Assembly: GCA_010030205.1 (NCBI GenBank)
Contig: RGQD01000005.1
Location: 1-42,305 of the forward strand
Source: Betaproteobacteria bacterium
Lineage (GTDB): Bacteria > Pseudomonadota > Gammaproteobacteria > Burkholderiales > Burkholderiaceae_C
DNA length: 42,305 nucleotides
Reading direction: 5' to 3'
The notes under the pieces were generated by a model, which had not been told where the DNA came from, searched no databases, and saw only the letters and a program-made list of their open reading frames with translations. Below are positions 7,350 to 38,665 of the stretch, piece after piece. Each line of letters opens with the position of its first letter. The first letter of the stretch is position 1. The translations under genes and the position numbers were made by a program.

Positions 7350-7382
7350 GATGGTCTGTCCTGTTGATGGCGTGCTGCAAGT

Positions 7383-12119
<4,737 letters not shown>

Positions 12120-12179
12120 CGCGCAGTCCTTCTCATTTCAGGGGAGTGGGAATTTACTGCAGCGCAGCAATCCCTTCAA

Positions 12180-12258: not shown

Positions 12259-12314
12259 CTGCTGCCACGCACCACGCACCACCTAGCAAGTCCTGCTCCT
12301 GGCTGCGCGTCCGC

Positions 12315-13031: not shown

Positions 13032-13034
13032 GGT

Positions 13035-14246: not shown

Positions 14247-14264
14247 GAACCTGTGCTGGACCGG

Positions 14265-15368: not shown

Positions 15369-15411
15369 GGCGGTCCAGTGTATTCGGCGCGATGACCGGG
15401 CGAGACGCTGC

Positions 15412-16032: not shown

Positions 16033-16188
16033 TCGCCACCACCGGACGCCGGCCCGGCATGAGAATAGCGGGCGCGTCGATCATTGTGGCAGTGACATTC
16101 ATGGCGCCAGAGTGTATCGGCGGGCGTGTGCAGACTGCGGACGAGGAGTCCGTCCGGGCGCGAGCTTGCGTCAGGTCAAACGGCCGCA

Positions 16189-19100: not shown

Positions 19101-19296
19101 CCGTGGGCGAGGACACGGCCATCGTGATCGACGCACTGCCAGTGGAACCGGCGCCAGAACCCGAACCGGTGCCGGGCAGCACCGGCGCGCCCGCGTCGAT
19201 CGATCCACCTCCGCCGCCGCCGCAAGCCACCAGCACCAGCACCAGCACCAACATCAGCAACCCGCCCAGCGCCGCCCTGATCTTCAAGAAACTCAT
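16189..19296 (-). CDS. Large lipoprotein with tandem bacterial Ig-like (Big/invasin-like) domains
   Basis: 1035 aa; signal peptide MSFLKIRAALGGLLMLVLVLVLVAC with lipobox Cys then GGGGGGS; repeated units such as SNSNVTAAAPATLSILVKDSAGLAVGAGTIVKVSS...DSSGVAAVTVTPKSANSNGADQIDVTSTVGGVTVTAPFVVQV. Confidence 0.85.
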   Translation of the reverse strand: MSFLKIRAALGGLLMLVLVLVLVACGGGGGGSIDAGAPVLPGTGSGSGAGSTGSASITMAVSSPTVTAASPVTVTLTVRDAKGSPMARTVVDLSTERGSLASLSVASVATDSNGNATALLSAASGGLSGADQVIGVAKLGTTTVQGSVSFVVAGGQPTIGLTISASTLRGSTGAETLRAVVKDAAGGPVSNMLVSFTSVGGRVKLGAQSAKTDGLGVATVTAAVGDSTLTAADTLTASTTVGAVAVTSSLVVQLLADRPSLSVSASNSNVTAAAPATLSILVKDSAGLAVGAGTIVKVSSLFGLSSFDAATSSTNSSGVAAVTVTPKSANSNGADQIDVTSTVGGVTVTAPFVVQVSSSNLNAPPVLQTSLSSTAVSAASPATVTAILSDGNGQAVAGAVITFSVVRGLAKTHLGTALTDASGKAVVILSPVSSTIAGADEVSASASFAGTALQSTKGFQIQATNVALSSLTSAIPSLGAYGQTTLTLGITGASVGSPVSVSVTSSCVSQGKASLSPLTFTATSASVALQYKDNGCGALQAEDKLQASIAGGSGSVSLSLPVATPLASSLAFVSASPEIIYIKGSGFTETSSVTFEVRDGAGNILPNRSVTLSLLTRGGGVTIEGGIADVPQVSDASGRVTVRVNAGTLPTPIRVSATLTGVLPVVATVSSNLSVAVGLPSQLNFSLAQATKNIEGFNIDGTPNSYNIIASDRSGNPVPAGTSINFVAEGGQIESIKQIQLASGLARTTAGFVSSNPRPADGRITVTAYALGEESFIDQNGNNIFDPGEPFQDLGNVFKDRAFDGFYDVSLDEYVPTNIANTSACVAAAAAAGATTATTALLALDPSIPSMGGSTCDGTWSGGGKVYVRRATETVLSTSAARVLWAGKSGLDASCQAITLQTGPQPTTTSVFTPVLSGQVWYGAGASIALPFIVADANTFSSRGPNGSVGRFNPMAAGTTVTVSTPTTGLKVTLGGGSPVPSTTEASSAAVGVSFDTVSSGVVFVTFTSPSGVASTYAINVQQTTVLNPKPSDCP

Positions 19297-19336
19297 GGCA
19301 ATACCTCCTCAGACAAGGCGCTGGTCTTCGCGCCAC

Positions 19337-21523
19337 TCAGCGCGCCGCGGCGCGGTCGGTCACGATCTTGGGCGTGATGAAGATCAGCAATTCGGTCTTG
19401 GTCGCCACCTTGGTGGTGTTGCGAAACAGCGCGCCGAGATAGGGCAAATCGCCCAGCAAAGGCACCTTGTTGACGTCGACGCTCTCGGTTTGCGTGAAGA
19501 TGCCGCCAATCACCACCGTGCCGCCGTTCTCGACCAACACCTCGGTCTGCACATGCTTGGTGTCGATCGCAAAGCCCTGCGGCGTGGATTGGCCCACGCT
19601 GTCCTTGTTGATGTCGAGCACCATGATCACGCTGCCCTCGGGCGTGATCTGCGGCTTGACTTCGAGCTTCAAGTTGGCCTTGCGGAACTGGATCGAGGTC
19701 GCGCCGCTGGACGTGGCCACCTGGTAGGGCAATTCAGTACCCTGCTCGATCAAAGCCTTGGTCTGATCGGCAGTGATCACCCGGGGACTGGAGATGATCT
19801 TGCCCTTGCCATCGGCCTCCAGCGCCGACAACTCCAGGTTCAGAAAGCGATTGGCCGCAGGGCTGAACAATGACAGCGCAAAACTGGGCAGGGCCGCAGC
19901 CCCCGAGAACACCGAGTTGACGCTGTTGGCCGGCAGGTTGACGAACTGGGTGTTGCTGAAGGCGTTGGTCGCGCCAGGCTGCAGCGTCTGGGAACCGGCC
20001 GCGTTGTAGTTGCCGCCAATGGTGAGGTAGTTGCCACCACCGACCGAATAGCCAGGAATGCCGCCCTGCACGCCACGCAGATCTGAGGCACCCAGCTTGA
20101 CCCCCAACGTGCGCCCGAAGCGGTCATCGGCCTCGACGATACGGGCCTCGATCAACACCTGGCGCACCGGGATGTCGATCTTGGCGATCAGCGCCTGGAC
20201 CTCCTCGAGCTTGGCAGGGATGTCGGTGACGAAGAGCTGGTTGGTGCGGCTTTCGAAGATCACGCTGCCGCGTGCCGACAGGATGCGCTGGGCTTGGGCG
20301 CCTGCTGCGGCCGAGCCGCCTGCGCCTCCTGCCCCAGCCCCGGCCGCGCCACCCGAAGCCCCAGCGCCGGCCTGCCCGGACAGGCCTCGCGCCACTTCGT
20401 CGGCGCGGGCATAGTTGAGCTGAAACGACTGTGTGCGAACCGGTTCGAGCTCAGCCGTCTTCTTCTTCGATTCGAGTTCGAGCTGCTCCTTGGCCAGCAA
20501 CTCCTCCTTCGGCGCGATCCACAGCACGTTGCCCGATTTGCGAACGCCCAGTCCCTTGCTCTGCAGGATGATGTCTAGGGCCTGGTCCCAAGGCACGTCC
20601 TTGAGCCGCAGCGTGACGCCGCCGGTCACGCTGTCGCTCGTCACGACGTTGAAGCTGGTGAAGTCGGCGATCACCTGCAGCAGCGCACGCACCTCGATGT
20701 TCTGGAAGTTCAGCGACAGCTTTTCGCCCGAAAATCCGGCGCTGGGGGTCAGTTTGTTCGGGTCGACCTTGAGCGGACGCAGTTCGAGCACAAACTGCTG
20801 GTCGCTCTGGTAGGCGCTGTGCTCCCAGTTGCCGCGCGGCTCGACCACCATGCGCACCCGGTCACCGCTCTGGGTGGTCGTCACGTATTGCACCGGTGTG
20901 CCGAAATCGGCCACATCGAGCCTGCGTCGCAGCGTCTCGGGCAGGCTAGAGCGCAAGAACTCGACCACCAGGCTCTGGCCTTGCTGGCGGATGTCAACCC
21001 CGACCTGGGTACTGGCCAGCGCGACGATGATCCGACCGGCACCATCGGCACCGCGACGGAAATCGACATCACGCAAAGGCAGATTTTCAGCACTGCCGGC
21101 AGCCGGCGCCGCAGCGCCGGCGTTGTCAAGCACCACCACCAGCACCTTGCCCTGCAACTCGGCGCGGTAGCCGACGGCATGCCGCAAGTTGAGCACCAGG
21201 CGCGTCCGCTCGCCGGCCTGAGCGATCGCCACCGACCGCAGGTTGCCCTGGTTGATGTCGACCAGGTTGCGGCCCAAGGCATTGGCCATCCGGGGGAGGT
21301 CGATCGCGACGCGGGGCGGAGTTTGCACCAAGAATCCATTCGGTGGCAGGCCCAGCGGCTCAGCGAACTCGATGCGCACCACGTCAGTGCCGGCTTGGGG
21401 GTTGCTGGTGATCGCCAGGATCGCGTTCTCGGCCAGCGCAAGCAAGGGCGTGGCACCGGCCAGCACGATGGCAGCAAACCGGTTGCACCACTTGAACATG
21501 CTCGACTCCTGAGGGTGGTTCAT
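19337..21523 (-). CDS. pilQ: Type IV pilus secretin PilQ
   Basis: AMIN-like N-terminus, KLSLNFQNIEVRALLQVIADFTSFNVVTSDSVTGGVTLRLKDVPWDQALDIILQSKGLG, VLIEARIVEADDRFGRTLGVKLG, secretin core; start overlaps pilP stop. Confidence 0.96.
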   Translation of the reverse strand: MNHPQESSMFKWCNRFAAIVLAGATPLLALAENAILAITSNPQAGTDVVRIEFAEPLGLPPNGFLVQTPPRVAIDLPRMANALGRNLVDINQGNLRSVAIAQAGERTRLVLNLRHAVGYRAELQGKVLVVVLDNAGAAAPAAGSAENLPLRDVDFRRGADGAGRIIVALASTQVGVDIRQQGQSLVVEFLRSSLPETLRRRLDVADFGTPVQYVTTTQSGDRVRMVVEPRGNWEHSAYQSDQQFVLELRPLKVDPNKLTPSAGFSGEKLSLNFQNIEVRALLQVIADFTSFNVVTSDSVTGGVTLRLKDVPWDQALDIILQSKGLGVRKSGNVLWIAPKEELLAKEQLELESKKKTAELEPVRTQSFQLNYARADEVARGLSGQAGAGASGGAAGAGAGGAGGSAAAGAQAQRILSARGSVIFESRTNQLFVTDIPAKLEEVQALIAKIDIPVRQVLIEARIVEADDRFGRTLGVKLGASDLRGVQGGIPGYSVGGGNYLTIGGNYNAAGSQTLQPGATNAFSNTQFVNLPANSVNSVFSGAAALPSFALSLFSPAANRFLNLELSALEADGKGKIISSPRVITADQTKALIEQGTELPYQVATSSGATSIQFRKANLKLEVKPQITPEGSVIMVLDINKDSVGQSTPQGFAIDTKHVQTEVLVENGGTVVIGGIFTQTESVDVNKVPLLGDLPYLGALFRNTTKVATKTELLIFITPKIVTDRAAAR

Positions 21524-22095
21524 CGCGCCTTCTCCTGGGCACGCTCTTGCAGTTGCAAGATGACAGCGCGCTCGGTCCATTCGCCAGCGGCGTCCTGCAC
21601 CAGCTCGCGCAAACCGATCTCGGTCTCGCTGACGCGGGTGACGCGACCGAAGTTCGGACCCAGGTAGTCGCCCAACCTGACCTGGTAGAGCTGCTTGTCG
21701 ACCTTGATCAGCGCAAACGCCACACCACCCTTGTTGACACTGCCCACCATGCTCATGGCATCGAGCGGCAATGACTCAAGCGGCTGTTTGCGGCGGTTTG
21801 CCTCCGAAGACAGCAGCGAATTAGCTTGCGCTGCTGGCTGCTTGATCGCAACGATGAGCTTCTGGCTGGAGAAGGGGTCGACTTGTCCGGTGTTGGCGTA
21901 GGGCACTGGTTCGAACTTCTTGGGCGCGGCCAGCGACTGCACGCGGGGCTTGGCCTCGCGGTGCTGCAGCGCCATCCAGGCCTGCAAGTCCTGGTTTTCG
22001 GCCTCACAAGCAACCAGCAGACCGCCGAACAGCGCCAGCAACAAGGCCCGTCGCAGCGCCCAAGCGGCAGCGCAGGACGCAGTGGGTGCGTTCAC
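21520..22095 (-). CDS. pilP: Type IV pilus lipoprotein PilP
   Basis: Lipobox GGLLVACEAENQDLQAWM; PLDAMSMVGSVNKGGVAFALIKVDKQLYQVRLGDYLGPNFGRVTRVSETEIGLRELVQDAAGEWTER. Confidence 0.95.
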   Translation of the reverse strand: MNAPTASCAAAWALRRALLLALFGGLLVACEAENQDLQAWMALQHREAKPRVQSLAAPKKFEPVPYANTGQVDPFSSQKLIVAIKQPAAQANSLLSSEANRRKQPLESLPLDAMSMVGSVNKGGVAFALIKVDKQLYQVRLGDYLGPNFGRVTRVSETEIGLRELVQDAAGEWTERAVILQLQERAQEKAR

Positions 22096-22793
22096 TTGCG
22101 GGCTCCCTTGGCCTTGGCTTCAGCCTCGATGCGGGCCTTGCGCAGCTCGGCCAACTCGGCGTTGTCCAGATAGCGGTAGGTTCGCGCGACGGCGTCCATC
22201 GTCAGCAGGCTGGCGCTGTCCTTGGCCGCGGGCACGATCGCCAGGTTGTGCAGCGTGACGATGCGCGAGAGGTTGGCGAGGTCAGCCGTGAATGCACCGA
22301 TGTCGTGAAAGCGGCCCGTCACGCGCACGCTGATGGGCAGCACCGCGTAATAGTCCTTGATCTCCACTTGACCAGGGCGAAAAAGCTCGAACTGCAGGCC
22401 ACGGCCTATGCCGGCCTGGTTGATGTCGGACAGCAGCGCATCCATCTCGGCCTTGCCGGGGAGCTGGCGCTCAAGCTGGGTGACATAGTCCTGCACCTGA
22501 ACCTTCTGCTTGCGCAACTCCGACAGGTTGACCGCTTGACCCAGCTTGGCCCGGTAGTCGTCCTTCAGCCCGGATTCGACCCTGCGGTCCGCCTCGAGTT
22601 GGTCTGCAGCGCCCGCGACCAACAACAGCCAGCCCAAGGCCAGCGTCAGTGCGGTGGCACCGACCCAGGCGCAGACCTTGGGCAACATCGGCCACTGCCC
22701 TGGCTGGCGCGGATTTAGGCCCCGAAATTGCAGCGACACGCGGTCGAACAAAGTGGCCAGGTCAAGATTCACCGCGCGGCTGCTGTTGGCCAT
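22092..22793 (-). CDS. pilO: Type IV pilus inner-membrane protein PilO
   Basis: LRKQKVQVQDYVTQLERQLPGKAEMDALLSDINQAGIGRGLQFELFRPGQVEIKDYYAVLPISVRVTGRFHDIGAFTADLANLSRIVTLHNL. Confidence 0.95.
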   Translation of the reverse strand: MANSSRAVNLDLATLFDRVSLQFRGLNPRQPGQWPMLPKVCAWVGATALTLALGWLLLVAGAADQLEADRRVESGLKDDYRAKLGQAVNLSELRKQKVQVQDYVTQLERQLPGKAEMDALLSDINQAGIGRGLQFELFRPGQVEIKDYYAVLPISVRVTGRFHDIGAFTADLANLSRIVTLHNLAIVPAAKDSASLLTMDAVARTYRYLDNAELAELRKARIEAEAKAKGARK

Positions 22794-22802
22794 CGCAGTT
22801 CC

Positions 22803-23411
22803 TCAAGCCGCTTTGCGCCCGCGGGCAGGGCCAGACGCCGCCACACCCGGCGGCTTGACAACCACGCGCAGCGCGAATTCGTAAAGTCGCTGCTGCTCAC
22901 GCAGGCCCGCAGCAGGCGGCGACATGACAGCCTTGATTTCGACCAGCTCCATGGGATCGAGCCACGCCGAGTTGTTCTGGGTGTTGCGCAGAAACTCCGA
23001 CACCCTCTCGTTCGTCTGCGCCAGACCGGTCAGCAGCACCAGACTGTCAGTCTGCTTGAGGCTGCTGAGGTAGAGGCCGTCGGGGCAGAGCCGCACCAAT
23101 TGGTCGAGCAAATGCACCGGCAGGTTGCGGTTGAGTTGTAGGTCTTCGACCGCGGCCTGGCGCGACTTGAGTCCGTCGATCTCGGCACGCAAGTGGGCAA
23201 TGTCCTTGATCTGAAGTTCCATGCGACCGATCTCGGTGCGCAACAAACTGTTTCGGGCCAGCTGGATCTGGTTCAGTCGCTCAACGCCGGCGTACCACAG
23301 CCCGACGATCACCGACCCAGCCGCTGCTGCCAAACCGATACCGATGAAGAACTGGCGCTGGCGCTGCCGGCGCCTGGCTTCCCGGTGCGGCAGCAGGTTG
23401 ATCCGGATCAT
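22803..23411 (-). CDS. pilN: Type IV pilus assembly protein PilN
   Basis: MIRINLLPHREARRRQRQRQF; operon context pilMNOPQ. Confidence 0.94.
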   Translation of the reverse strand: MIRINLLPHREARRRQRQRQFFIGIGLAAAAGSVIVGLWYAGVERLNQIQLARNSLLRTEIGRMELQIKDIAHLRAEIDGLKSRQAAVEDLQLNRNLPVHLLDQLVRLCPDGLYLSSLKQTDSLVLLTGLAQTNERVSEFLRNTQNNSAWLDPMELVEIKAVMSPPAAGLREQQRLYEFALRVVVKPPGVAASGPARGRKAA

Positions 23412-24487
23412 GGCAAGAACCTCCTCATCGCAAGGCCGCAGGCGGTAAGGTAGGAAGCGGCCTCTTTGCGCAATCTGGCCTCGCGCACGGCAGGCCCGGT
23501 CTTCATGCCGTCGAACGGATTGACCACGTTTGCAGTGAACCCGGTCAGCGCGGTGACGCGGTCAGCCAGGCCCGGCAGTGCAGCGCTACCGCCGGCCAGC
23601 ATCACGTGGTGCACTCGATGGTGCGGCGTGCTGGTGAAGAAGTACTGCAAGGCGCGGCCGATCTCCTGTGCCAGGGTGTCGACAAACGGCGCAAGAATTG
23701 CCGTGGCAAAGTCGTCGGGCAGGTCACCGGACCGCTTCCTCTGTTCAGCCGCGTCGACAGACATGCCGTATTGGCGAGAGATCAGGGTCGTGAGCTGCGA
23801 ACCGCCAAAAGCCTGGTCACGGTCGTAAAGCAATTCGCCTTCACGCAGCACCTTCAGGCTGGTGCTGTCGGCGCCGATTTCGAACAGGGCGACCAAAGCG
23901 TCACGGCCGCCCTGCGGCAACTTGGCGATCAATCGACTGATCGCCAGCAATGAAGCATGGTTCTCGAGGTCGAGGATCACCAGCTTCAGGCCTGCGGCCT
24001 CGGCCAAACCTTGCCGGTCCTGCACCCGCTCCTTGCGCGAAGCGGCGATCAGCACTTCGACATCTGCGCTCGAGTTCGGGCTGGGCCCAATGACGCAGAA
24101 GTCCAGGCTCACATCGTCAAGCGAAAACGGGATGTACTGGTTGGCCTCGGACTCGACCTGCAGTTCGAGTTCTTCGTCGCGCAGTCCGGCCGGCAACAGG
24201 ATCCGCTTGGTGATCACCGCCGATTGCGGCATCGCCATCGCCACCAGCCGGGTCTTGCCACCACTCTTGGCCATCAGCTTGAGAACAGTGGCTGCAACTT
24301 GATCGAAGTTCTCGATCTGGCCATCGCTGATCCACCCCTTCTCGAAGGGCTCACTGGCCAGGCGGTCGAGCACATAGTCGCCAGCCGAAGACATGCCGAG
24401 TTCGACCAGTTTGGCGCTCGAGGCACTGATGTCCAGGCCGATCATCGGCGCGGGCTGGCGGCCCAGCATCCGGTCCAAAAAACTCAC
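23408..24487 (-). CDS. pilM: Type IV pilus assembly ATPase-like protein PilM
   Basis: Likely GTG start at 24487: VSFLDRMLGRQPAPMIGLDISASSAKLVELG...LLPAGLRDEELELQVESEANQYIPFSLDDVSLDF. ORF track extends to 25042 but that overlaps mrcA antisense. Confidence 0.94.
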   Translation of the reverse strand: MSFLDRMLGRQPAPMIGLDISASSAKLVELGMSSAGDYVLDRLASEPFEKGWISDGQIENFDQVAATVLKLMAKSGGKTRLVAMAMPQSAVITKRILLPAGLRDEELELQVESEANQYIPFSLDDVSLDFCVIGPSPNSSADVEVLIAASRKERVQDRQGLAEAAGLKLVILDLENHASLLAISRLIAKLPQGGRDALVALFEIGADSTSLKVLREGELLYDRDQAFGGSQLTTLISRQYGMSVDAAEQRKRSGDLPDDFATAILAPFVDTLAQEIGRALQYFFTSTPHHRVHHVMLAGGSAALPGLADRVTALTGFTANVVNPFDGMKTGPAVREARLRKEAASYLTACGLAMRRFLP

Positions 24488-24670
24488 AGGGCGTCTCCCA
24501 ACGACCAACAAGGCTGACATCACCTCAATAGTTGAGTCGATGCTAGCAGCAAAGCCCTTGCCGCCCAACGCCCATCGCACCGGCACCAACGGGTCGCGTT
24601 GATATATCCCGAGAGCAACGCCATTCGGGCGACGGGCCAGGGAACCGCGTTCGATACACTGTGGTGCTAC

Positions 24671-27046
24671 ATGAGCGACACCGAGCCCGCGCCAGCGGCG
24701 CCCCGCGCTGCCAAGACAGCGCCCCCTGCCAGCCCCAAGCGCAGCTTGGTCAAAACCTTGCTTGTACCGCTGGCCTGGCTGCTTGCTGCCGGCTTGGCGG
24801 CGCTGCTGACGGGCGCGATGCTGTTGGGCGTGGCCTTGGCCGTGGCCTATCCCAACCTGCCGGAAGTCAGCGGCCTGACCGACTACAGGCCCAAGCTGCC
24901 GCTGCGGGTGATATCGGCCGACGGCGTGCTGCTGGGCGAGTTCGGCGAGGAACGGCGCATCTACACCCCGATCGCACAGATCCCGAAGGTGATGCAAGAG
25001 GCTGTGCTGGCGATCGAAGATGCCCGCTTCTACCGCCACCACGGCGTGGACTACCTGGGCGTGATCCGCGCCGGGCTGGCGCAGTTCAACAAGGCCAAGA
25101 GCCAGGGCGCATCGACCATCACGATGCAGGTCGCCAGGAATTTCTACCTTTCGACCGAAAAGACCTTCACCCGCAAGATCTACGAGGTCTTGCTGGCACT
25201 CAAGATCGAAAGTCAGCGGACCAAGCCGCAGATTTTGGAGATCTACATGAATCAGATCTTCCTAGGACAGCGCGCCTATGGCTTTGCGGCAGCCAGCGAG
25301 ATCTACTTCGGCAAGCCACTGGCCGAGATCACCATCGGCGAGGCCGCCATGCTGGCTGGCCTGCCGCAAGCGCCATCGGCTTACAACCCTGTGTCCAATC
25401 CGAAGCGGGCCAAGCGGCGTCAGCAGTACATCATTGACCGCATGGAAGCCAACGGTTTCATCACCGAAGATCAGGCCGAACTGGCGCGCAACGAGGTATT
25501 GAGACTGCGCCCGCCCAGTGAAGTGGCAGTGCACGCGGAATATGTCGCCGAGGCGGTGCGCCAGCTGATCTTCAGTCAGTACGGACTCGAGACCACGACC
25601 CGGGGTTTGAACGTCCAGGTCACCGTCGATGCATCGGACCAAGCGGTGGCGTACCGGGCGCTCAGGCGTGGCCTGCTCGACTACGAGCGGCGCCAGGTCT
25701 ACCGCGGCCCGGAAGACCATGTCGACCTGCCCGCAGACCCCAAAGAGTTGGACACCCGCATCGCCGAGGCGCTGGCAGACCACCCCGACAACGACGAGTT
25801 GAAAGCCGCCGTGGTGCTTGAAGCCAGTCGCAACAAGGTGGTGGCGGTGTTGCAATCGGGTGAAAGCATCACCATCAGCGGCGAAGGCCTCAAGCCGGTG
25901 GGCTCAGGCCTGGTCGACAAAGCAGAGCCTCAAAAGCAGATCCGCCGCGGCGCGATCGTGCGCGCGGTACGCGGTCCCAAAGGCGACTGGACCCTGACCC
26001 AATTGCCGGAGGTCGAAGGGGCTTTCGTGGCGATGGACACCCACACCGGCGGCATCCGCGCGCTGGTCGGTGGCTTCGATTTCGGCAAGAGCAAGTTCAA
26101 CCATGTCACCCAGGCCTGGCGCCAGCCTGGGTCGAGCTTCAAGCCCTTCATCTACTCGGCTGCGCTGGAAAAAGGATTCACGCCGCAGACCGTGGTCAAT
26201 GATGCGCCGCTGTTTTTCGACGCCGGCACGACCGGCAGCCAGCCCTGGGAGCCGAAGAACTACGACGGCAAGTTCGAGGGCGCGATGCCGCTCAAGACGG
26301 CCCTGGCCAAGTCGAAGAACATGGTGTCGATCCGGGTCTTGCAATCGACTGGCGTGCACTTCGCCCAGGACTGGATCACGCGCTTCGGTTTCGAAGCCGA
26401 CAAGCATCCGGCGTACCTGACGATGGCGCTGGGCGCGGGTTCGGTCACCGCCTTGCAGATGGCCAGTGGCTACAGCGTGTTTGCCAACGGTGGCTACCGC
26501 CTCAAGCCGATGTTGATCACCCGCATCACCGACAACAAGGGCCGCTTGCTGCAGCAAAGCGCGCCCCCAGTGGTCGATGAGTCGTCCCGGGTGATCGACG
26601 CGCGCAACGCCTTCGTGATGACCCAGTTGCTGGGCGAGGTGGCACGCTCAGGCACCGCAGCGCGGGTTTACCAGACCTTCAAACGCATGGACTTGTCCGG
26701 CAAGACCGGCACCACCAATGACTCCATGGACGCCTGGTTTGCCGGCTACCAGCCGAAGCTGGCGGCTGTGGTCTGGATTGGCTACGACAACCCGCGCAAG
26801 CTAGGCGATCGCGAAACCGGCGGTGGTCTGGCATTGCCGGTGTGGATGGAGTACATGACCCACGCGCTGCGCAAGCTGCCCGAGCAACAGCCCGAGGTGC
26901 CAGAAGGGCTGACGCAGCGCGCAGGCGACTGGATGTTCAACGAATTCGGTCCTGGCGCGGGCATCAGCAGCGTCGGTCTGGACGACAAGGTGCCGCGCAG
27001 CCCCAGCGATACCGAGCGCAAGGGCATCCTGGACCTGTTCCGCTAA
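24671..27046 (+). CDS. mrcA: Penicillin-binding protein 1A
   Basis: GT51 motifs EDARFYRHHGVDYLGVIRAG, GASTITMQVARNFYLS, and transpeptidase GSSFKPFIYSAALEKG, SKNMVSIRVL, SGKTGTTND. Divergent from pilM. Confidence 0.97.
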   Translation: MSDTEPAPAAPRAAKTAPPASPKRSLVKTLLVPLAWLLAAGLAALLTGAMLLGVALAVAYPNLPEVSGLTDYRPKLPLRVISADGVLLGEFGEERRIYTPIAQIPKVMQEAVLAIEDARFYRHHGVDYLGVIRAGLAQFNKAKSQGASTITMQVARNFYLSTEKTFTRKIYEVLLALKIESQRTKPQILEIYMNQIFLGQRAYGFAAASEIYFGKPLAEITIGEAAMLAGLPQAPSAYNPVSNPKRAKRRQQYIIDRMEANGFITEDQAELARNEVLRLRPPSEVAVHAEYVAEAVRQLIFSQYGLETTTRGLNVQVTVDASDQAVAYRALRRGLLDYERRQVYRGPEDHVDLPADPKELDTRIAEALADHPDNDELKAAVVLEASRNKVVAVLQSGESITISGEGLKPVGSGLVDKAEPQKQIRRGAIVRAVRGPKGDWTLTQLPEVEGAFVAMDTHTGGIRALVGGFDFGKSKFNHVTQAWRQPGSSFKPFIYSAALEKGFTPQTVVNDAPLFFDAGTTGSQPWEPKNYDGKFEGAMPLKTALAKSKNMVSIRVLQSTGVHFAQDWITRFGFEADKHPAYLTMALGAGSVTALQMASGYSVFANGGYRLKPMLITRITDNKGRLLQQSAPPVVDESSRVIDARNAFVMTQLLGEVARSGTAARVYQTFKRMDLSGKTGTTNDSMDAWFAGYQPKLAAVVWIGYDNPRKLGDRETGGGLALPVWMEYMTHALRKLPEQQPEVPEGLTQRAGDWMFNEFGPGAGISSVGLDDKVPRSPSDTERKGILDLFR

Positions 27047-29853: not shown

Positions 29854-31800
29854 TTGCTGACGACCTTTCCCCGCCTGATGCTTGACCATGCGCGCCAACG
29901 ACCCGACGCGGCGGCACTGCGTGAAAAAGAATACGGCATCTGGCAAACCACCAGTTGGTCGAAATTGGCCAGTCTGGTGCGCGACCTGGCCTGCGGCATG
30001 GCCGAGGCCGGCTTGGTCGCGGGTCAACATGTCATCGTGGTGGGCGACAACCGGCCGCGCCTGTATGCCAGCATGCTGGCTGTGCAATCGCTGGGTGCGG
30101 TGCCAGTGCCGCTGTACCAGGATGCGGCGAGCAGCGAATTCGTCTTTCCGATCAACAACGCCGAGGTGGTATTCGCGGTGGTCGAAAACCAGGAGCAGGT
30201 CGACAAACTGCTCGAGATCCGGGACCAATGCCCACGGCTGGCGCGCATCTGGTTCGACGACCCACGTGGCTTGCGCAAGTACGACCAGCCAGGGCTGGGG
30301 GCGATCGATGCATTGATCGAAGCAGGTGCGGCACGCAGTCATCGTGACCCCGGCTTCTTCGACACCGAAGTGGCCAAACGCAGGCCCGATGATGTGGCGG
30401 CGATGTTCTTCACTTCGGGTACCACCGGCAATCCAAAAGGCGTCGTGCACACACATGGATCGCTGCTCGACAGAGCCCAGGCCGGCAAGGACTTCGACCG
30501 CTTGACCGAGCGCGAAGAGGTGCTGGCCTACATGCCTTTGGCCTGGATCGGCCAGAACATCTTCAGCTATGCACAGTGGCTGGCCTGCGGCTACATCGTC
30601 AACTGCCCCGAATCAGCAGCCACCGTCACGATAGACCTCAAAGAGGTCGGCCCGACCTATTACTTTGCGCCGCCGCGCATCTTCGAGGGCCTGCTGACGA
30701 CGGTGATGATCCGGATGGAGGACGCCTCGAGTCTCAAGCGCTGGTTGTTCCAGCGCTGCATGACCTTGGCCCGGCGCGTCGGCCCGGCACGGCTGGATGG
30801 CAAGCCGGTCTCGTGGATCGACCGCCTGAAGTGGCGCCTGGGAGATCTGGCGATCTACGGCCCGCTGCGCAACAGCCTGGGTTTCAGCCGTGTGCGAGTG
30901 GCCTACACCGCAGGCGAGGCGATAGGACCCGACCTGTTCAGCTTCTTCCGCTCGATAGGCGTCAACCTCAAGCAACTCTACGGCTCGACCGAGACCGCCG
31001 TGTTCGTCTGCCTGCAGCCCGACCACGAGGCACGATCTGACACCGTCGGGGTGCCGATCGCCGGGGTGCAGATCAAGCTGGCTGACAGCGGCGAGATCCT
31101 GATCAAGAGCCCGGGTCTGCTCAAGGAATACTACAAGAACCCGGACGCCACTGCCGAGGCCTTGACGCCCGACGGCTGGTACCACAGCGGAGACGCCGGA
31201 TTCCTGGACGCCGATGGACACCTGAAGATCATCGACCGCCACAAGGACGTTGGTCGCCTCAAAGGCGGACCGCACGACGGCGCGATGTTCGCGCCCAAAT
31301 ATGTCGAGAACAAGCTCAAATTCTTCCCGTACATCAAGGAGGCGGTGGCCTTTGGCGACCAGCGCAGCGTGGTCTGCGCCTTCGTCAACATCGATGTCGA
31401 AGCCGTCGGCAACTGGGCCGAGCGCCGAAACCTCGCCTACGCAGGCTACGCCGACCTGGCGCAAAGGCCAGAGGTCTACGAGCTGATCCGCGATTGCGTG
31501 GAACAAGTCAACGCTGACCTGGCGATGGACGACATGCTCGCCGGCAGCCAGATCAGCCGCTTCCTGGTGCTGCACAAGGAACTCGACGCCGACGACGGCG
31601 AAATGACGCGCACCCGCAAGGTCAAACGCGGCGCGATCTTCGAGAAGTACCAAGTCCTGGTCGACGCGCTGTACGCTGGGAAAACCGAGCAATTCATCGA
31701 GACAGCGGTCAAATTCGAGGACGGACGCTCGGGCAGTGTCTCGGCCACTTTGAGGATAGGCGATGCCAAGACCCTGCCCGCGCTGAAGAAAGCCGCCTGA
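29854..31800 (+). CDS. AMP-dependent acyl-CoA synthetase/ligase (ANL superfamily)
   Basis: 648 aa, TTG start with AAGGAG upstream; canonical P-loop MFFTSGTTGNPKGVVHTHGS, YGSTETAVF, GWYHSGDAGFLDADGHLKIIDRHKDV. Confidence 0.93.
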   Translation: MLTTFPRLMLDHARQRPDAAALREKEYGIWQTTSWSKLASLVRDLACGMAEAGLVAGQHVIVVGDNRPRLYASMLAVQSLGAVPVPLYQDAASSEFVFPINNAEVVFAVVENQEQVDKLLEIRDQCPRLARIWFDDPRGLRKYDQPGLGAIDALIEAGAARSHRDPGFFDTEVAKRRPDDVAAMFFTSGTTGNPKGVVHTHGSLLDRAQAGKDFDRLTEREEVLAYMPLAWIGQNIFSYAQWLACGYIVNCPESAATVTIDLKEVGPTYYFAPPRIFEGLLTTVMIRMEDASSLKRWLFQRCMTLARRVGPARLDGKPVSWIDRLKWRLGDLAIYGPLRNSLGFSRVRVAYTAGEAIGPDLFSFFRSIGVNLKQLYGSTETAVFVCLQPDHEARSDTVGVPIAGVQIKLADSGEILIKSPGLLKEYYKNPDATAEALTPDGWYHSGDAGFLDADGHLKIIDRHKDVGRLKGGPHDGAMFAPKYVENKLKFFPYIKEAVAFGDQRSVVCAFVNIDVEAVGNWAERRNLAYAGYADLAQRPEVYELIRDCVEQVNADLAMDDMLAGSQISRFLVLHKELDADDGEMTRTRKVKRGAIFEKYQVLVDALYAGKTEQFIETAVKFEDGRSGSVSATLRIGDAKTLPALKKAA

Positions 31801-31801
31801 C

Positions 31802-32623
31802 ATGGCCAACGAAGCGAACAGCCAAGCCTCTGGCGACGTCATCCTCGACGTCAAGAACATCTCGCTGAGCTTTGGCGGGGTCAAGGCGCTGACTGACATC
31901 AGCTTCAACGTACGCGAGCACGAGATCCGCGCCATCATCGGACCCAACGGCGCGGGCAAGAGTTCGATGCTCAACTGCATCAACGGCGTCTACACGCCGC
32001 AACAGGGCGCGATCACCTTCCGCGGCCAGACCTTCAGCCACATGAGCAGCCGCCAGGTTGCCGAGATGGGCGTGGCCCGCACCTTCCAGAATCTGGCGCT
32101 GTTCAAAGGCATGAACGTGATCGACAACATCATGTCGGGGCGCAATCTGAAGATGAAAAGCAACCTGTTCCTGCAGGCCTTCCGTGATCCATTCGGCATC
32201 GGCCCGGCAGCGCGCGAAGAAGCTGCTCACCGCGAGTTCGTCGAGCACATCATCGACTTTCTCGAGATCCAGGCCCACCGCAAGACGCTGGTCGGCCGCC
32301 TCCCCTACGGCCTGCAAAAGCGCGTCGACTTGGGGCGCGCGCTGGCGATGGAGCCCAGCGTGCTGTTGCTGGATGAGCCGATGGCGGGGATGAACGTTGA
32401 GGAGAAGCAGGACATGTGCCGCTTCGTGCTGGAGGTCAACGAGGAGTTCGCGACCACCATCGTGCTGATCGAGCACGACATGGGCGTACGGCACCCCGGA
32501 CGAGGTGCGCAACAACGAGGACGTGATCAGTGCCTACCTCGGCACGTCTCACTGACATGGCCCACCCCCTACGCGCTTCGTGCGCCCCCTCTCAAGCAAA
32601 TGTGGCTTTGCCACTTTGCTTGA
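31802..32623 (+). pseudogene. livG: Branched-chain-amino-acid-type ABC transporter ATP-binding protein LivG, C-terminally frameshifted by an apparent internal deletion
   Basis: Normal through LLLDEPMAGMN...TIVLIEHDMGV (about 32488), then out of frame; the expected C-terminus GTPDEVRNNEDVISAYLGTSH* is present in another frame ending at 32555. Confidence 0.85.
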
Positions 32624-32764
32624 TCCCCACGGGGGGCGGCCGGCTTCGGCCGGCCTTGGGGCGCTCAAGAGGGCGCCGCCAGCGGCCCGGCAAAACCGGT
32701 TCTGCGCTGCTCGCCTGGTTTGTTCAACACCATATCGGCACGCCGGATTGCTGAGACTATTGCC
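32556..32764 (+). repeat. Structured intergenic spacer with stacked hairpins (livG-livH)
   Basis: Contains AAGCAAAtGTGGC-ttt-GCCACTTTGCTT and GGCCGGC-TTCG-GCCGGCC stem-loops; its ends resemble the livM-livK spacer. Confidence 0.6.
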
Positions 32765-33694
32765 ATGGGATTTTTCCTGGAAACACTGTTTGGCGGCCTG
32801 ATGGCCGGCATGCTCTATTCGCTGATCGCGCTGGGTTTCGTGCTGATCTACAAGGCCTCGGGCGTGTTCAATTTCGCCCAGGGCGCGATGGTGCTGTTCG
32901 CCGCGCTGGCGATGGCGCGCTTCGCCGAATGGGGGCCAAAGTACCTGGGGTTTTCCAACCACCTGCTGGCGATCGCGTTGGCCTTCTTGGGCGCGATGGC
33001 GGTGATGGTCGTGGTGGCTTGGTTGATAGAGCGCCTGGTGCTGGGGAAATTGGTCAACCAGGAGGGCATCACGCTGCTGATGGCCACGTTGGGCATCAGC
33101 TACTTCATGGACGGCTTTGGCCAGACCCTGTTCGGCAGCGACATCTACAAGATCGACATCGGCATGCCCAAGGACCCGATCTTCGTGCTTGAAAGCCTCT
33201 TTCCAGGTGGCGTGCTGATCAACAAGGAAGACCTCTACGCCGCGCTGATCGCTGCAGTGCTGGTGGCTGCCCTCAGCGTCTTCTTCCAGAAGACCAGCAC
33301 CGGTCGTGCCTTGCGCGCGGTGGCCGACGACCACCAGGCCGCGCAGTCCATCGGCATCCCATTGCGCAGGATCTGGGTGATCGTCTGGAGTGTGGCGGGC
33401 TTTGCCGCGTTGGTGGCCGGAATGATCTGGGGGTCGAAATTGGGCGTGCAGTTCTCGCTCAGCCAGGTGGCGTTGAAGGCGCTGCCGGTCGTGATCCTGG
33501 GCGGGCTGACCTCGGTGCCGGGCGCCATCCTCGGTGGCTTGATCATCGGCGTGGGCGAGAAGCTGTCCGAGGTTTACATCGGCCCGATGCTGGGCGGTGG
33601 GATCGAGATCTGGTTCGCCTACGTGCTGGCGCTGCTGGTGCTGCTGGTCAGGCCGCAAGGCTTGTTCGGCGAAAAGATCATCGACCGCGTCTGA
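32765..33694 (+). CDS. livH: Branched-chain-type ABC permease LivH
   Basis: MGFFLETLFGGLMAGMLYSLIALGFVLIYKASGVFNFAQGAMVLFAAL..., typical LivH N-terminus. Confidence 0.95.
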   Translation: MGFFLETLFGGLMAGMLYSLIALGFVLIYKASGVFNFAQGAMVLFAALAMARFAEWGPKYLGFSNHLLAIALAFLGAMAVMVVVAWLIERLVLGKLVNQEGITLLMATLGISYFMDGFGQTLFGSDIYKIDIGMPKDPIFVLESLFPGGVLINKEDLYAALIAAVLVAALSVFFQKTSTGRALRAVADDHQAAQSIGIPLRRIWVIVWSVAGFAALVAGMIWGSKLGVQFSLSQVALKALPVVILGGLTSVPGAILGGLIIGVGEKLSEVYIGPMLGGGIEIWFAYVLALLVLLVRPQGLFGEKIIDRV

Positions 33695-33711
33695 TCGGCC
33701 AAGGAAACAAC

Positions 33712-34776
33712 ATGCTCTATCGTGAGAACGGCCAATTCAAGACCAGCTACCGTGCTGACCAGCAGATCTTTCCGATCTTGCAGGACCGCGTGCTGATCTT
33801 GGCGCTGGTGGCGCTGGCCTTCATCGCAGTGCCTTTTCTAGCCAGTGAGTACACCTTTCGCGCGGTACTGATCCCGTTCCTGATCCTGTCGCTCGCCGCA
33901 CTGGGCCTGAATGTGCTGGTGGGCTACTGCGGCCAGATTTCGCTGGGAACCGGCGCCTTCATGGCGATCGGCGCTTATGGCGCTTACAACTTTTTCGTCC
34001 GGGTACCCGGCATGCCGCTGATCGCCGCACTGCTGTTGGGCGGCGCCTGCTCGACGACGGTCGGCGTGCTGTTCGGCCTACCGTCGCTGCGCATCAAGGG
34101 CTTGTACCTGGCAGTGGCCACCTTGGCGGCGCAGTTCTTCACCGACTGGGCCTTCTTGCGCATACGCTGGTTCACCAACGATTCGTCGTCGGGTTCGGTC
34201 AGCGTCGCAGGTCTGAATGTACTGGGTTGGCCGATCGAGACGCCGGTGCAGAAATACCTGTTCTGCTTAGGCTTCGTCTGCGTGTTTGCGCTGCTGGCCA
34301 AGAATCTGGTGCGCGGCAACATCGGCCGCGAATGGATGGCGATTCGCGACATGGACGTGGCTGCAGCGGTGATCGGCATCCGGCCAGTGTATGCAAAGCT
34401 CACCGCTTTCGCTGTCAGTTCCTTCATCGTCGGCGTGGCCGGCGCACTGTGGGGCTTCGTGCACCTCGGTTCCTGGGAGCCGGCGGCGTTCTCGGTCGAC
34501 CGATCGTTCCAACTTCTGTTCATGGTGATCATCGGCGGGCTGGGGTCGATCGCTGGCAGCTTTTTCGGCGCGGCCTTCATCGTCTTGCTGCCTATCCTGC
34601 TCGACGCGCTACCCTCGATGATGGGAATACCGATCGACACGGCGCTGGCAGCGCACCTGACCTACATGATTTTCGGCGCGCTGATTGTTTTCTTTTTGAT
34701 CGTCGAGCCGCACGGCATCGCCCGACTTTGGGCCACCGGGCGCGAGAAGCTGCGGCTGTGGCCATTTCCACATTGA
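33712..34776 (+). CDS. livM: Branched-chain-type ABC permease LivM
   Basis: LGLNVLVGYCGQISLGTGAFMAIGAYGAYN...GLGSIAGSFFGAAFIVLLPILLD. Confidence 0.95.
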   Translation: MLYRENGQFKTSYRADQQIFPILQDRVLILALVALAFIAVPFLASEYTFRAVLIPFLILSLAALGLNVLVGYCGQISLGTGAFMAIGAYGAYNFFVRVPGMPLIAALLLGGACSTTVGVLFGLPSLRIKGLYLAVATLAAQFFTDWAFLRIRWFTNDSSSGSVSVAGLNVLGWPIETPVQKYLFCLGFVCVFALLAKNLVRGNIGREWMAIRDMDVAAAVIGIRPVYAKLTAFAVSSFIVGVAGALWGFVHLGSWEPAAFSVDRSFQLLFMVIIGGLGSIAGSFFGAAFIVLLPILLDALPSMMGIPIDTALAAHLTYMIFGALIVFFLIVEPHGIARLWATGREKLRLWPFPH

Positions 34777-34799
34777 CTCGACCCACCCCCGGCAGCGCT

Positions 34800-34825
34800 T
34801 GCGGAACGGCGAACCCGGTTCCGCA
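34800..34825 (+). other. Hairpin in livM-livK spacer
   Basis: TGCGGAAC-(10 nt)-GTTCCGCA, perfect 8-bp stem. Confidence 0.6.
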
Positions 34826-34869
34826 GCAGTTGCTGGTTTTGTTCCATTGACCCACTCTTGGAGGTAGAC

Positions 34870-36207
34870 ATGACATTCAAATCAATTGTTCTCAGCGCTG
34901 CGGTATTGGCCGCCAGTCTGAGCGCCTTGCTGGTCACGCCAGCCATTGCACAGGCGCAGGCCAAAGAGCAGTACTTTCCGCTGCTGGTCTACCGCACCGG
35001 CCCTTATGCGCCCAACGGCACACCCTGGGCCAACGGCAAGCAGGACTACCTCAAGCTGGTCAACGCCCGCGACGGCGGCATCAACGGGGTCAAAATCAGC
35101 TTCGAGGAATGCGAGACCGGCTACGCCACGGACAAAGGCGTCGAATGCTACGAGCGATTGAAGAGCAAAGGCGCCAGCTTGTTCGACCCACAGGCCACTG
35201 GCATCACCTTCGCGCTGACCGACAAGGTGGCTGTCGACAAGGTGCCGCTGATCACTGTGGGCTACGGGTTGGCGGCCTCGCAGGATGGCGGCGTCTTCAA
35301 GTGGAATTTCCCGATTCTGGGCAGCTACTGGACCGGTGCAGATGTGCTGGTCCAGCATATCGGCAAGAAGGAAGGCGGGCTGGACAAGCTCAAGGGCAAG
35401 AAGATCGCGCTGGTCTACCACGACAGTCCGTTCGGCAAGGAACCCATGCCGCTGCTGGAAGAGCGAGCGCGAACCCACGGTTTCGAGTTGTTGAAGATCC
35501 CGGTCACCGCGCCAGGGGTAGAGCAGAAGTCGGCCTGGCTGCAGGTGCGCCAGCAAAAACCCGACTATGTGCTGTTGTGGGGATGGGGCGTGATGAACTC
35601 CACTGCGCTGAAAGAGGCGCAGGCCACGGGCTACCCGCGCGACAAGATGTACGGCGTCTGGTGGGCCGGCGCCGAACCTGATGTCAAGGATGTCGGCGAG
35701 GGCGCCAAAGGCTACAACGCGCTGGCACTGCAGCACGGCGCCGACCGCAATGCCAAGGTCGTGCAAGACATCCTCAAGCTCGTCCACGACAAGGGGCAGG
35801 GCACAGGCCCGAAGGACGAAGTGGGCACGGTGCTCTACATGCGAGGCCTGATCATCCAGATGCTCGGTGTCGAGGCCGTGCGGCGCGCCCAGGAGCGCTT
35901 CGGCAAGGGCAAGGTGATGACCGGCGAACAAGTTCGCTGGGGACTGGAAAACCTGGCGCTGGACCAGAAAAAACTTGACGCACTGGGCTTCGCAGGTGTG
36001 ATGCGTCCTGTCAGCACCTCGTGCATGGACCACATGGGGTCGTCGTGGGCGCGGGTCCACACCTGGGACGGCAGCAAATGGGGCTTCAGCTCTGACTGGT
36101 ACCAGGCTGACGAGCAGATCCTCAAGCCGATGATCAAGGCAGCGGCCGACAAGTACGCCAGCGAAAAGAAAATGACGCGCCGCACGCCAGCGGATTGCCA
36201 GTCCTGA
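34870..36207 (+). CDS. livK: Branched-chain-type ABC transporter periplasmic substrate-binding protein
   Basis: Signal peptide MTFKSIVLSAAVLAASLSALLVTPAIAQA; LivK-like fold sequence (YATDKGVECYERLKSKGASLFDPQATGITFALTDK...); cluster context. Confidence 0.9.
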   Translation: MTFKSIVLSAAVLAASLSALLVTPAIAQAQAKEQYFPLLVYRTGPYAPNGTPWANGKQDYLKLVNARDGGINGVKISFEECETGYATDKGVECYERLKSKGASLFDPQATGITFALTDKVAVDKVPLITVGYGLAASQDGGVFKWNFPILGSYWTGADVLVQHIGKKEGGLDKLKGKKIALVYHDSPFGKEPMPLLEERARTHGFELLKIPVTAPGVEQKSAWLQVRQQKPDYVLLWGWGVMNSTALKEAQATGYPRDKMYGVWWAGAEPDVKDVGEGAKGYNALALQHGADRNAKVVQDILKLVHDKGQGTGPKDEVGTVLYMRGLIIQMLGVEAVRRAQERFGKGKVMTGEQVRWGLENLALDQKKLDALGFAGVMRPVSTSCMDHMGSSWARVHTWDGSKWGFSSDWYQADEQILKPMIKAAADKYASEKKMTRRTPADCQS

Positions 36208-36254
36208 TCGGCGCTGCCAACCAAGACTGGCGTTGCCAGGTCCGTTCGGCATCC

Positions 36255-36353
36255 ACCCCTTCCCGCCAAGCGGGAGGGGTCTGCAGCAACCCCACCCAGC
36301 GGGGCGGGCTCCTGGCGGAGCCCTAGTGCAAACACCGCGCGCGGTGCTTGCAC
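36255..36353 (+). other. Three consecutive hairpins in the livK-livF spacer
   Basis: 36255-36280 ACCCCtTCCCGC-caa-GCGGGAGGGGT; 36306-36323 GGGCTCC-tggc-GGAGCCC; 36326-36353 GTGCAAaCACCGCG/CGCGGTGcTTGCAC. Confidence 0.7.
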
Positions 36354-36372
36354 GAGTCAAAGGACATCCCCG

Positions 36373-37185
36373 ATGAGCACACCGAACATCCTTCTCAACG
36401 TCAACGGCATCGAGGTCATCTACAACCATGTGATCCTGGTGCTCAAGGGCGTGTCGCTGAACGTGCCCGAAGGCAAGGTGGTGGCGTTGCTCGGCGGCAA
36501 CGGCGCGGGCAAGACCACCACGCTGCGTGCGGTGAGCAACCTGCTGCGCGCCGAGCGTGGCGATGTCACCAAGGGCAGCATCGAGTTGCGCGGCGAGCGT
36601 ATCGAGCAGCTCAGCCCGGCGCAGATGGTGGACCGCGGCGTGATCCAGGTGATGGAGGGCCGGCACTGCTTTGCCCACCTCACGATCGAGGAGAACCTGA
36701 TGACCGGCGCCTACACCCGCAAGGACGGCAAGGCCTCGGTGGCGGCGACGCTTGACAAGGTCTACAACTACTTTCCGCGCCTGAAACTGCGGCGCAGCAG
36801 CCAGGCCGCCTACACCTCGGGTGGTGAACAACAGATGTGCGCGATCGGCCGGGCACTGATGGCCAATCCCAAGATGGTGCTGCTGGACGAGCCCAGCATG
36901 GGCCTGGCGCCGCAGATCGTCGAGGAGGTGTTCGAGATCGTCAAGGACTTGAACACCAAGGAGCAAGTCACCTTCCTGCTGGCCGAGCAAAACACCAATA
37001 TCGCGCTGCGTTATGCAGACTACGGCTACATCCTCGAGAACGGCCGCATCGTGCTGGACGGCGTCGCCAAGGACCTGCGCGAGAACGAAGACGTCAAGGA
37101 GTTCTACCTCGGGATGGGCGGCGGAGATCGAAAGAGCTTCAAGGACGTCAAGAGCTACAAGCGCCGCAAGCGTTGGCTCGCATGA
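36373..37185 (+). CDS. livF: Branched-chain-type ABC transporter ATP-binding protein LivF
   Basis: LLGGNGAGKTTTLRAVSNLL, YTSGGEQQMCAIGRALMANPKMVLLDEPSMGLAPQIVEEVF. Confidence 0.95.
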   Translation: MSTPNILLNVNGIEVIYNHVILVLKGVSLNVPEGKVVALLGGNGAGKTTTLRAVSNLLRAERGDVTKGSIELRGERIEQLSPAQMVDRGVIQVMEGRHCFAHLTIEENLMTGAYTRKDGKASVAATLDKVYNYFPRLKLRRSSQAAYTSGGEQQMCAIGRALMANPKMVLLDEPSMGLAPQIVEEVFEIVKDLNTKEQVTFLLAEQNTNIALRYADYGYILENGRIVLDGVAKDLRENEDVKEFYLGMGGGDRKSFKDVKSYKRRKRWLA

Positions 37186-37209
37186 CACCCGACGCTGCGG
37201 GGGTCCGCG

Positions 37210-37509
37210 ATGACCGATGACCTGAGTCTTGATGCACAGCCATTCGATGCCGCAGAGGCACTGCAGAAGTTGCAGCGCGGCCTGCGCGACCTGGGGCTGA
37301 CCGAACGCGCGGGCTATTTCGAACGGCGCGGCATCGCGATCGCCCGCGCAGGGATCGATGGCATGACTGTCCTTGCGGCCAGGGTCAAGCGGCCGTCGCG
37401 CGGCAGTCCCGAATGGATCGAACGGGTGCTTCGCAGCAGCGCCGATGCCCGTGATTTCGTCGCTGACTTGAAGAAGCAACTGGCGCAATGGAGCGACCGT
37501 GATGACTGA
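37210..37509 (+). CDS. Uncharacterised 99-aa protein encoded between livF and the AMP-ligase homologue
   Basis: MTDDLSLDAQPFDAAEALQKLQRGLRDLGLTERAGYFERRGIAIARAGIDGMTVLAARVKRPSRGSPEWIERVLRSSADARDFVADLKKQLAQWSDRDD; overlaps the next start by 8 nt. Confidence 0.75.
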   Translation: MTDDLSLDAQPFDAAEALQKLQRGLRDLGLTERAGYFERRGIAIARAGIDGMTVLAARVKRPSRGSPEWIERVLRSSADARDFVADLKKQLAQWSDRDD

Positions 37510-38665
37510 GTATTTCGACGCGCTGGAGCGGCGCGACCCGGTGGTCCGCGAGGCCGCGCTGATGGCGGCGCTGCCTGGCCATATCGCGCAAGCCCAGCGC
37601 GCTACCAATGCTTTTGCGCTCTCGCTCGCCGGCGTGAACGCCGACAGTGTCACCAGCCGAACGTCACTCGCCCGCCTGCCGGTGATCCGCAAGCACCGGG
37701 TCTTCCAGTCGCCCGGGCCGATCTACGAGCCTGAGGGCCTGGGTCATGACTACTGGCGCATGGCGCGCGCGATCTTCGCGGCCGGATTTCGCGCCGGCGA
37801 CTTGGCGCACTGCAGCTTCAGCTACCACCTGACGCCCGCTGGATCGATGATGGAGAGCGGCGCCCATGCGGTCGGCTGCACCACTTTTGCCGGCGGCGTC
37901 GGCAACACCGAGTTGCAGTTGCAGGCAGTGGCCGAATTGCGGCCGCACGGCTACATCGGCACCCCCAGTTTTTTGAAAATCCTGGTCGAGAAAGCGTCCG
38001 AAACAGGCATGTCGATCGCATCCTTGACCAAGGCCATGGTGGGCGGCGAAGCCTTTCCGCCCAGTCTGCGCGACTGGCTGCAGGAGCGTGGCATCGCGGC
38101 CTACCAAAGCTATGCCACCGCCGACGCAGGCTTGATCGCCTACGAGACCCATTATCGACAAGGCTTGGTCGTGGACGAAGCGATCCTGCTGGAGATTGTC
38201 CGCCCCGGCACCGGCGATGTGCTGCCCGAAGGTGAAGTCGGCGAGGTCGTGGTCACGGTGCTCAACCCCGACTATCCACTGGTGCGCTTTGGCACCGGCG
38301 ACCTCTCCGCAGTCTTGGCCGGCCCCTGCCCCAGCGGCCGCAGCAACATGCGTATCAAGGGTTGGCTGGGACGCGCCGACCAGACTGCCAAGGTTCGCGG
38401 TATGTTCGTGCACCCCAGCCAGGTCGCGGAAATCCTCCGGCGCCACCCCGAGGTGCTGCGCGGCCGCCTGGTGATCGAAGGTCAGATGGCCAAGGACCGC
38501 ATGACATTGCGAGTCGAGGTGGCAGGCGGACCTGAGGGTCTGGCAGAGGCCATCGCCAACAGCATCCGCGACATCACCAAGCTGCGAGGCGAGGTGCAGC
38601 TACTCGCCCCAGGTGGTTTGCCCAACGATGGCAAGGTGGTCGATGATGCGCGCTCCTACGACTGA
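37502..38665 (+). CDS. PaaK-like (phenylacetate-CoA ligase family) AMP-ligase homologue with non-canonical P-loop region
   Basis: EIVRPGTGDVLPEGEVGEVVVTVLNPDYPLVRFGTGDLSAVL...RIKGWLGRADQTAKVRGMFVHPSQV is PaaK-like; no SSGTTG-P motif. Confidence 0.85.
   Translation: MTEYFDALERRDPVVREAALMAALPGHIAQAQRATNAFALSLAGVNADSVTSRTSLARLPVIRKHRVFQSPGPIYEPEGLGHDYWRMARAIFAAGFRAGDLAHCSFSYHLTPAGSMMESGAHAVGCTTFAGGVGNTELQLQAVAELRPHGYIGTPSFLKILVEKASETGMSIASLTKAMVGGEAFPPSLRDWLQERGIAAYQSYATADAGLIAYETHYRQGLVVDEAILLEIVRPGTGDVLPEGEVGEVVVTVLNPDYPLVRFGTGDLSAVLAGPCPSGRSNMRIKGWLGRADQTAKVRGMFVHPSQVAEILRRHPEVLRGRLVIEGQMAKDRMTLRVEVAGGPEGLAEAIANSIRDITKLRGEVQLLAPGGLPNDGKVVDDARSYD

Follow-up and report, generated by a model that had tools for sequence, protein, structure and literature searches.

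A PaaK-derived protein family with a replaced phosphate-binding loop, genetically coupled to FadD and a Liv-type importer

We describe here a conserved family of PaaK-derived proteins that fail two defining catalytic features of their superfamily and that are tied to an importer and to an intact ligase. These proteins have the fold and the family signature of PaaK, their phosphate-binding loop is replaced, the A10 lysine has been lost repeatedly among them, the A7/A8 pocket is retained, and their gene is coupled, both genetically and phyletically, to a FadD–Liv module. We define this clade, named SPGP, by the presence of SPG[P/T/A] instead of the P-loop together with GRADQ..K at A8. The member considered in detail is encoded in the window, i.e., the whole stretch of 42,305 nucleotides that was analysed. 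We give a probability of about one half to the reading that SPGP would be a non-adenylating pseudo-ligase, binding AMP, acyl-AMP or acyl-CoA and serving the importer and FadD. The gene and its motifs are located in the window as follows.

37502–38665, forward strand: SPGP-clade PaaK-like protein of 387 aa (ATG at 37502; in-frame GTG at 37499)
37696–37697, forward strand: deletion junction, 99–111 nt (33–37 codons) missing in the DNA alignment with L077, L086, L087 and L089
37697–37732, forward strand: RVFQSPGPIYEP in place of the A3/P-loop, with SPGPIYEP at 37709–37732 (SPG in 141/141 of the family)
38111–38125, forward strand: A5 motif YATAD (YGLSE in PaaK), Tyr kept and Ser-Glu changed to Ala-Asp (97 SPGP versus 22 PaaK sequences)
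38285–38302, forward strand: A7 motif RFGTGD, ribose-binding Asp kept (R and D in 141/141)
38369–38392, forward strand: A8 hinge motif GRADQTAK, Arg kept (GRADQ and K in 141/141)
38627–38653, forward strand: A10 region DGKVVDDAR, Lys present in the window, another residue in a fifth of the family

The membership of SPGP in the ANL superfamily is clear from both sequence and fold. The initial annotation, made from the letters of the DNA, had seen a PaaK-like ligase homologue in this gene, and every peptide that it quoted is present in the 37499/37502–38665 frame. At the level of profiles, two Pfam families exceed their cut-offs, AMP-binding with 41.2 bits and AMP-binding_C_2 with 25.7 bits. The NCBIfam PaaK profile TIGR02155 stays far below its curated cut-off, with 112.4 bits for 646.3. 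PF00501 was found in all 35 SPGP members tested. The closest PDB sequence relatives of the window protein are PaaK structures (4r1l/2y4o/2y27), which are also the top Foldseek matches of the SPGP model. The AlphaFold model of the window protein has a pLDDT of 90.0, and the global rmsd of about 12 Å between the SPGP model and PaaK is probably caused by a rotation of the C-terminal domain; side chains and domain orientation in such models carry no weight as ligand evidence. The genome of the window also encodes a separate PaaK-type protein (G000:C275, L162/L188), which reaches 559 bits to TIGR02155 and is cut by the contig end. The SPGP protein is thus not the only PaaK relative of this genome.

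At the phosphate-binding loop, the 22 canonical PaaKs of our alignment all carry SSGTTGKPTVVGY, and what reads SSGTTGKP in PaaK reads SPGPIYEP in the window protein, which continues as SPGPIYEPEG. The S, P and G are invariant in the window and in 141 of 141 distinct homologues, and are followed by P in 133 of these homologues, by T in 7 and by A in 1. Thus, the loop replacement is a conserved property of the family and not a matter of chance; the same family-wide invariance rules out a local frameshift as the origin of the motif. Column by column, from the 22 PaaK to 97 SPGP sequences, Ser became Pro, one Thr became Pro, the other became Ile, Gly became Tyr, and at least two residues were deleted, so that both threonines and the second glycine of the loop are gone. 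The absence of the canonical ATP-binding loop from 37502–38665, which the initial annotation had reported, is therefore borne out and extends to the whole family. The annotation had also named a canonical P-loop elsewhere in the protein as the observation that would undo its reading; we looked for [ST]SG[ST]TGxP and found it in none of the 142 rows. Walker A-like strings occur in two rows and are unconserved, and a relocated P-loop is ruled out. In the full-length relative L086 (AlphaFold pLDDT 90.9), the loop forms a tight hairpin, with strands at residues 97–103 and 107–112 and a three-residue turn.

The window copy also lacks a segment directly 5' of RVFQSPGP, in frame, which amounts to 111 nt when compared with the nearest relative and to 99 nt when compared with others in the genus. 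It is the sole row of 142 in which all 32 columns are empty, every other complete member, nearest relative included, keeping the segment; the N-terminal part before the motif is thus incomplete in this copy. The gap may be a deletion private to this copy or may stem from the assembly, and the window copy may accordingly be impaired or misassembled. Taken further, this would make of it a decaying pseudogene or an assembly error, and of the missing loop an artefact of one copy. The loss of 33–37 codons in this copy alone is in keeping with such a reading, as are the low confidence of its model at residues 65–73 (pLDDT below 50, with no hairpin there) and the fragmentation of the source assembly (906 contigs, 6.9% contamination). 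However, the deletion is in frame, the remaining reading frame stays open and shows purifying selection (dN/dS of 0.10 against L008, its nearest relative, over 273 codons, and about 0.15–0.18 against other relatives), and every intact relative has the loop replacement. Since this reading explains the gap and not the motif, we consider it very improbable. A private deletion as the simple cause of the motif is ruled out, the motif being identical in the intact relatives. What the initial annotation observed is a family-wide loop replacement and a private deletion combined, of which the deletion could not be recognised from the single copy at its disposal.

The other active-site motifs are unequally preserved. 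At A5, the tyrosine of the adenine pocket is retained in the clade, together with several other pocket residues; in the aligned set of 97, the two positions that follow as Ser-Glu in PaaK are occupied by Ala in 97 of 97 and by Asp in 90 or Glu in 7. The A7 aspartate and the A8 arginine are each present in 141 of 141 members, as in catalytic ANL enzymes. Within A8, the Asp of PaaK is replaced by Gln, and the Ile found in 22 of 22 PaaKs by a lysine that is invariant in SPGP (141/141). We take this lysine to correspond in position to the lysine that firefly luciferase uses for the second half-reaction. The A10 lysine, kept in 22 of 22 canonical PaaKs, is found in 112 of 140 SPGP members; in the other 28 the position holds L, V, I or R, and the residues that flank it are nearly invariant in the family. 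On the tree, parsimony counts 16 changes between lysine and non-lysine, and at least 10 are required by the starred branches; one of the non-lysine rows, L066, is simply truncated and is counted among these changes. Where class I adenylate-forming enzymes were surveyed (PMC6122825), the A7 Asp and the A8 Arg were listed as fully conserved, as was the A10 Lys. Three peptides that had been listed as kept landmarks fare differently here: RFGTGDLSAVL is confirmed by the invariant R and D of A7; YATADAG is not, the Ser-Glu of PaaK being replaced in it; and GKVVDDARS holds for the window and not for the family. The initial annotation thus overstated how canonical A5 and A10 are. Taken together, the replacement of the A3 loop and the repeated loss of the A10 lysine, with A7, A8 and the A5 tyrosine kept, show that the adenylation elements have decayed in this family and that the nucleoside pocket and the hinge have been spared.

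Two other activities can be weighed on these residues. SPGP could still be an ATP-dependent acyl-CoA ligase, with a remodelled loop that binds the triphosphate, and act as a second ligase for another acid. The residues retained at A5 (Tyr), A7 (Asp) and A8 (Arg) and the match to the PaaK fold would suit such an enzyme; the A10 lysine in 80% of the members and the acidic residue (D/E) at the A5 Mg position may even indicate a reshaped ATP site. Against this, both threonines and the second glycine are lost and at least two loop residues deleted, the A10 lysine has disappeared at least 10 times, and damage to the P-loop cripples other members of the superfamily. Indeed, this motif is critical for the adenylation step, Gly/Gly/Pro mutations inhibiting other members severely (PMC6122825), and in a related ligase, mutation of Thr161, Gly163 or Pro168 lowers activity 1000-fold or abolishes it (PMC8388817). 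We therefore regard a ligase activity of SPGP as quite unlikely. A protein restricted to the second half-reaction, or to acyl transfer from acyl-AMP or acyl-CoA by means of the invariant A8 lysine, seems to us unlikely as well, if a little less so. The strict GRADQ..K of SPGP where PaaK has Ile, and a decay confined to the adenylation elements, are what this would predict, but FadD appears capable of both steps and an A8 lysine is common among ANL proteins generally. Ligases rarely release acyl-AMP, which also counts against it.

The window protein and 141 homologues share the defining motifs, and in the tree the clade forms one starred branch (96) with 98 rows under it. Among 399 Pseudomonadota genomes, 68, i.e., about one in six of those sampled, carry a strong SPGP member; intact members score at least 575 bits, the shortened copy of the window 568, and the next matches at most 271. 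A described group of P-loop-less PaaKs, or a biochemical characterisation of SPGP, was looked for in the open-licence literature and none was found. The suggestion that these proteins form a distinct subfamily is consequently upheld by the score gap, by the branch and by this literature. A scan of about 85,000 species finds the clade essentially in Alpha-, Beta- and Gammaproteobacteria, as seen with query peptide patterns by which distant forms would be missed. Below the score gap, the remote relatives L152 and L153 read SPGP, L157 reads SPGN, and L154 keeps SSGTTS. L152 (8785–10023, forward strand) and L153 (2979–4196, reverse strand) lack the A8 Asp and the A10 Lys as well, and they too lie among FadD and Liv genes; they represent another branch, deeper than the first, on the same theme. 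As for the source records, those titled Flavobacteriia and Roseobacter (L029/L031) show matches of identical length (3,021 bases) at identical coordinates, and the nearest relative of the window SPGP sits in a MAG titled Bordetella parapertussis (L008/L077); both pairs are probably mislabelled bins.

The genomic context of SPGP is as conserved as its motifs. In the window, the module extends over 29854–38665 and consists of the following genes, the SPGP gene listed above being the last.

29854–31800, forward strand: FadD-type acyl-CoA synthetase with an intact P-loop (Pfam AMP-binding, 219 bits), the phyletic partner of SPGP
31802–32623, forward strand: LivG-type ABC ATPase (family match)
32720–33694, forward strand: LivH-type permease (family match)
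33712–34776, forward strand: LivM-type permease (family match)
34858–36207, forward strand: LivK-type periplasmic binding protein (Peripla_BP_6, family match)
36373–37185, forward strand: LivF-type ABC ATPase (family match)
37210–37509, forward strand: 99-aa ORF between livF and SPGP, overlapping the SPGP start and not part of the core module

The order fadD-livGHMKF-SPGP, with SPGP as the last of seven genes, is found with small rearrangements in nearly all loci with enough flank, and this synteny is seen in Alpha-, Beta- and Gammaproteobacteria. TSGTTGNPKG and YGSTE are both intact in the FadD of the window, which confirms that a canonical ligase is co-encoded at 29854–31800. The small ORF at 37210–37509 has no Pfam or NCBIfam match, and its homologues are restricted to loci closely related to the window. 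With FadD presence set at E ≤ 1e-120, the 399 Pseudomonadota genomes comprise 67 with both FadD and SPGP, none with FadD only and one with SPGP only (Fisher p of about 5e-76, uncorrected for relatedness). In the sole SPGP-only genome (G398), a FadD scoring 388 bits lies about 5 kb from SPGP, and in 61 of the 67 shared genomes the two genes are at most 13 kb apart. When the FadD threshold is lowered, weaker FadD matches without SPGP occur, from 377 bits downwards.

Several known systems are close to SPGP. The phenylacetate-CoA ligase PaaK (TIGR02155; 2y27, 2y4n, 2y4o) shares with it the fold, the domain order, the A7 Asp, the A8 Arg and the A5 Tyr, and a canonical PaaK can also adjoin Liv-type genes, as in L155; SPGP differs by the absence of the SSGTTG loop, by the changes at A5 (Ser-Glu to Ala-Asp) and A8 (Asp to Gln, Ile to Lys) and by a dispensable A10 lysine. 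The best match in both sequence and fold is the putative acyl-CoA ligase BT_0428 (4r1l/4rvn), which, unlike SPGP, retains a glycine-rich loop, SSSGTTGNPT in the printed alignment. The next fold match, the PaaK-like 2-hydroxyisobutyryl-CoA ligase HCL (6hdw-6he2), is linked to SPGP by the cluster member of Xanthobacter that lies beside a B12 acyl-CoA mutase; in contrast to SPGP, HCL has a GTSGTTGRPT loop and is a proven ligase, with crystal states containing adenylate and CoA. Direct members of the clade are found under the names of putative phenylacetate-CoA ligase (Xaut_5040) and, on plasmids, 'AMP-binding protein'. These names were given by similarity only, and the motifs do not support ligase names.

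The neighbouring genes give few hints on the substrate. In a minority of loci, the module has leucine/isovalerate-type genes (L026, L047, L116, L121) or a B12 acyl-CoA mutase (L012, L118, L119) beside it. In L116 and L121, on plasmids of Azospirillum and Peteryoungia, the module is followed by genes for isovaleryl-CoA dehydrogenase, a methylcrotonyl-CoA carboxylase-type enzyme and HMG-CoA lyase. In L118 (8367–13215, plasmid pXAUT01 of Xanthobacter autotrophicus Py2), the neighbours of SPGP are a B12-dependent acyl-CoA mutase with its chaperone and a PaaD-type thioesterase, and the FadD–Liv genes follow. Since such genes are restricted to a minority of loci, a short branched acid as the substrate in some lineages is only a lead. 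Pivalate reportedly figures in work on Xanthobacter. A search for another gene present throughout the loci, from which the substrate could be read, found none, and the recurrent extra ORF clusters, which have no reference label, appear to be antisense shadow ORFs. In the window, the module is flanked by a lysA-type decarboxylase and a TctC-type receptor, which say nothing specific on the substrate. Its surroundings are ordinary for a chromosome, with gltB- and gltD-type, HD-domain phosphohydrolase, aroB and pilM/pilO/secretin genes at 5877–25042 (reverse strand); Big_1 repeats are encoded at 16192–19296. A 936-aa open frame at 34882–37692 (reverse strand), antisense to livK-livF-SPGP, most likely arises only as the shadow of coding sequence with a high GC content.

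How could these elements work together? The Liv-type ABC importer (LivGHMKF) would take up a carboxylic acid, which FadD would activate with ATP and CoA. SPGP would assist FadD or the importer as a partner that makes no use of ATP, presumably in physical contact with FadD or LivFG. Through its retained adenosine/ribose pocket and its A8 hinge, it would bind AMP, acyl-AMP or acyl-CoA, adenylate binding being suggested by a few retained residues, and it would hold, pass on or sense the activated acid at the transporter–FadD site. As an evolutionary route, a PaaK encoded next to a Liv importer, an arrangement seen in L155, might have left activation to FadD and remained as a partner. That the protein does a different job from the co-encoded ligase, as the initial annotation supposed, is supported by the lost phosphate loop, by the repeated loss of the A10 lysine and by the constant pairing with an intact FadD. 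The role as a sensor or a carrier-interacting protein that it also raised would be compatible with this picture. More tentatively, and as a possibility that we hold to be rather doubtful, this pseudo-ligase of PaaK descent, devoid of ATP use, could be indispensable to the module, linking the import of the acid to its activation by a separate synthetase through carrying or sensing the activated acyl group.

Databases label SPGP as an AMP-binding protein or a phenylacetate-CoA ligase despite the missing loop for ATP use. If the pseudo-ligase reading is true, this annotation would be wrong in many genomes, and SPGP would represent an undescribed partner for an acid uptake that is coupled to CoA activation. 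It would also provide a conserved non-adenylating branch of the ANL superfamily, in which the features of adenylation and those of the thioester side would be separable for study.
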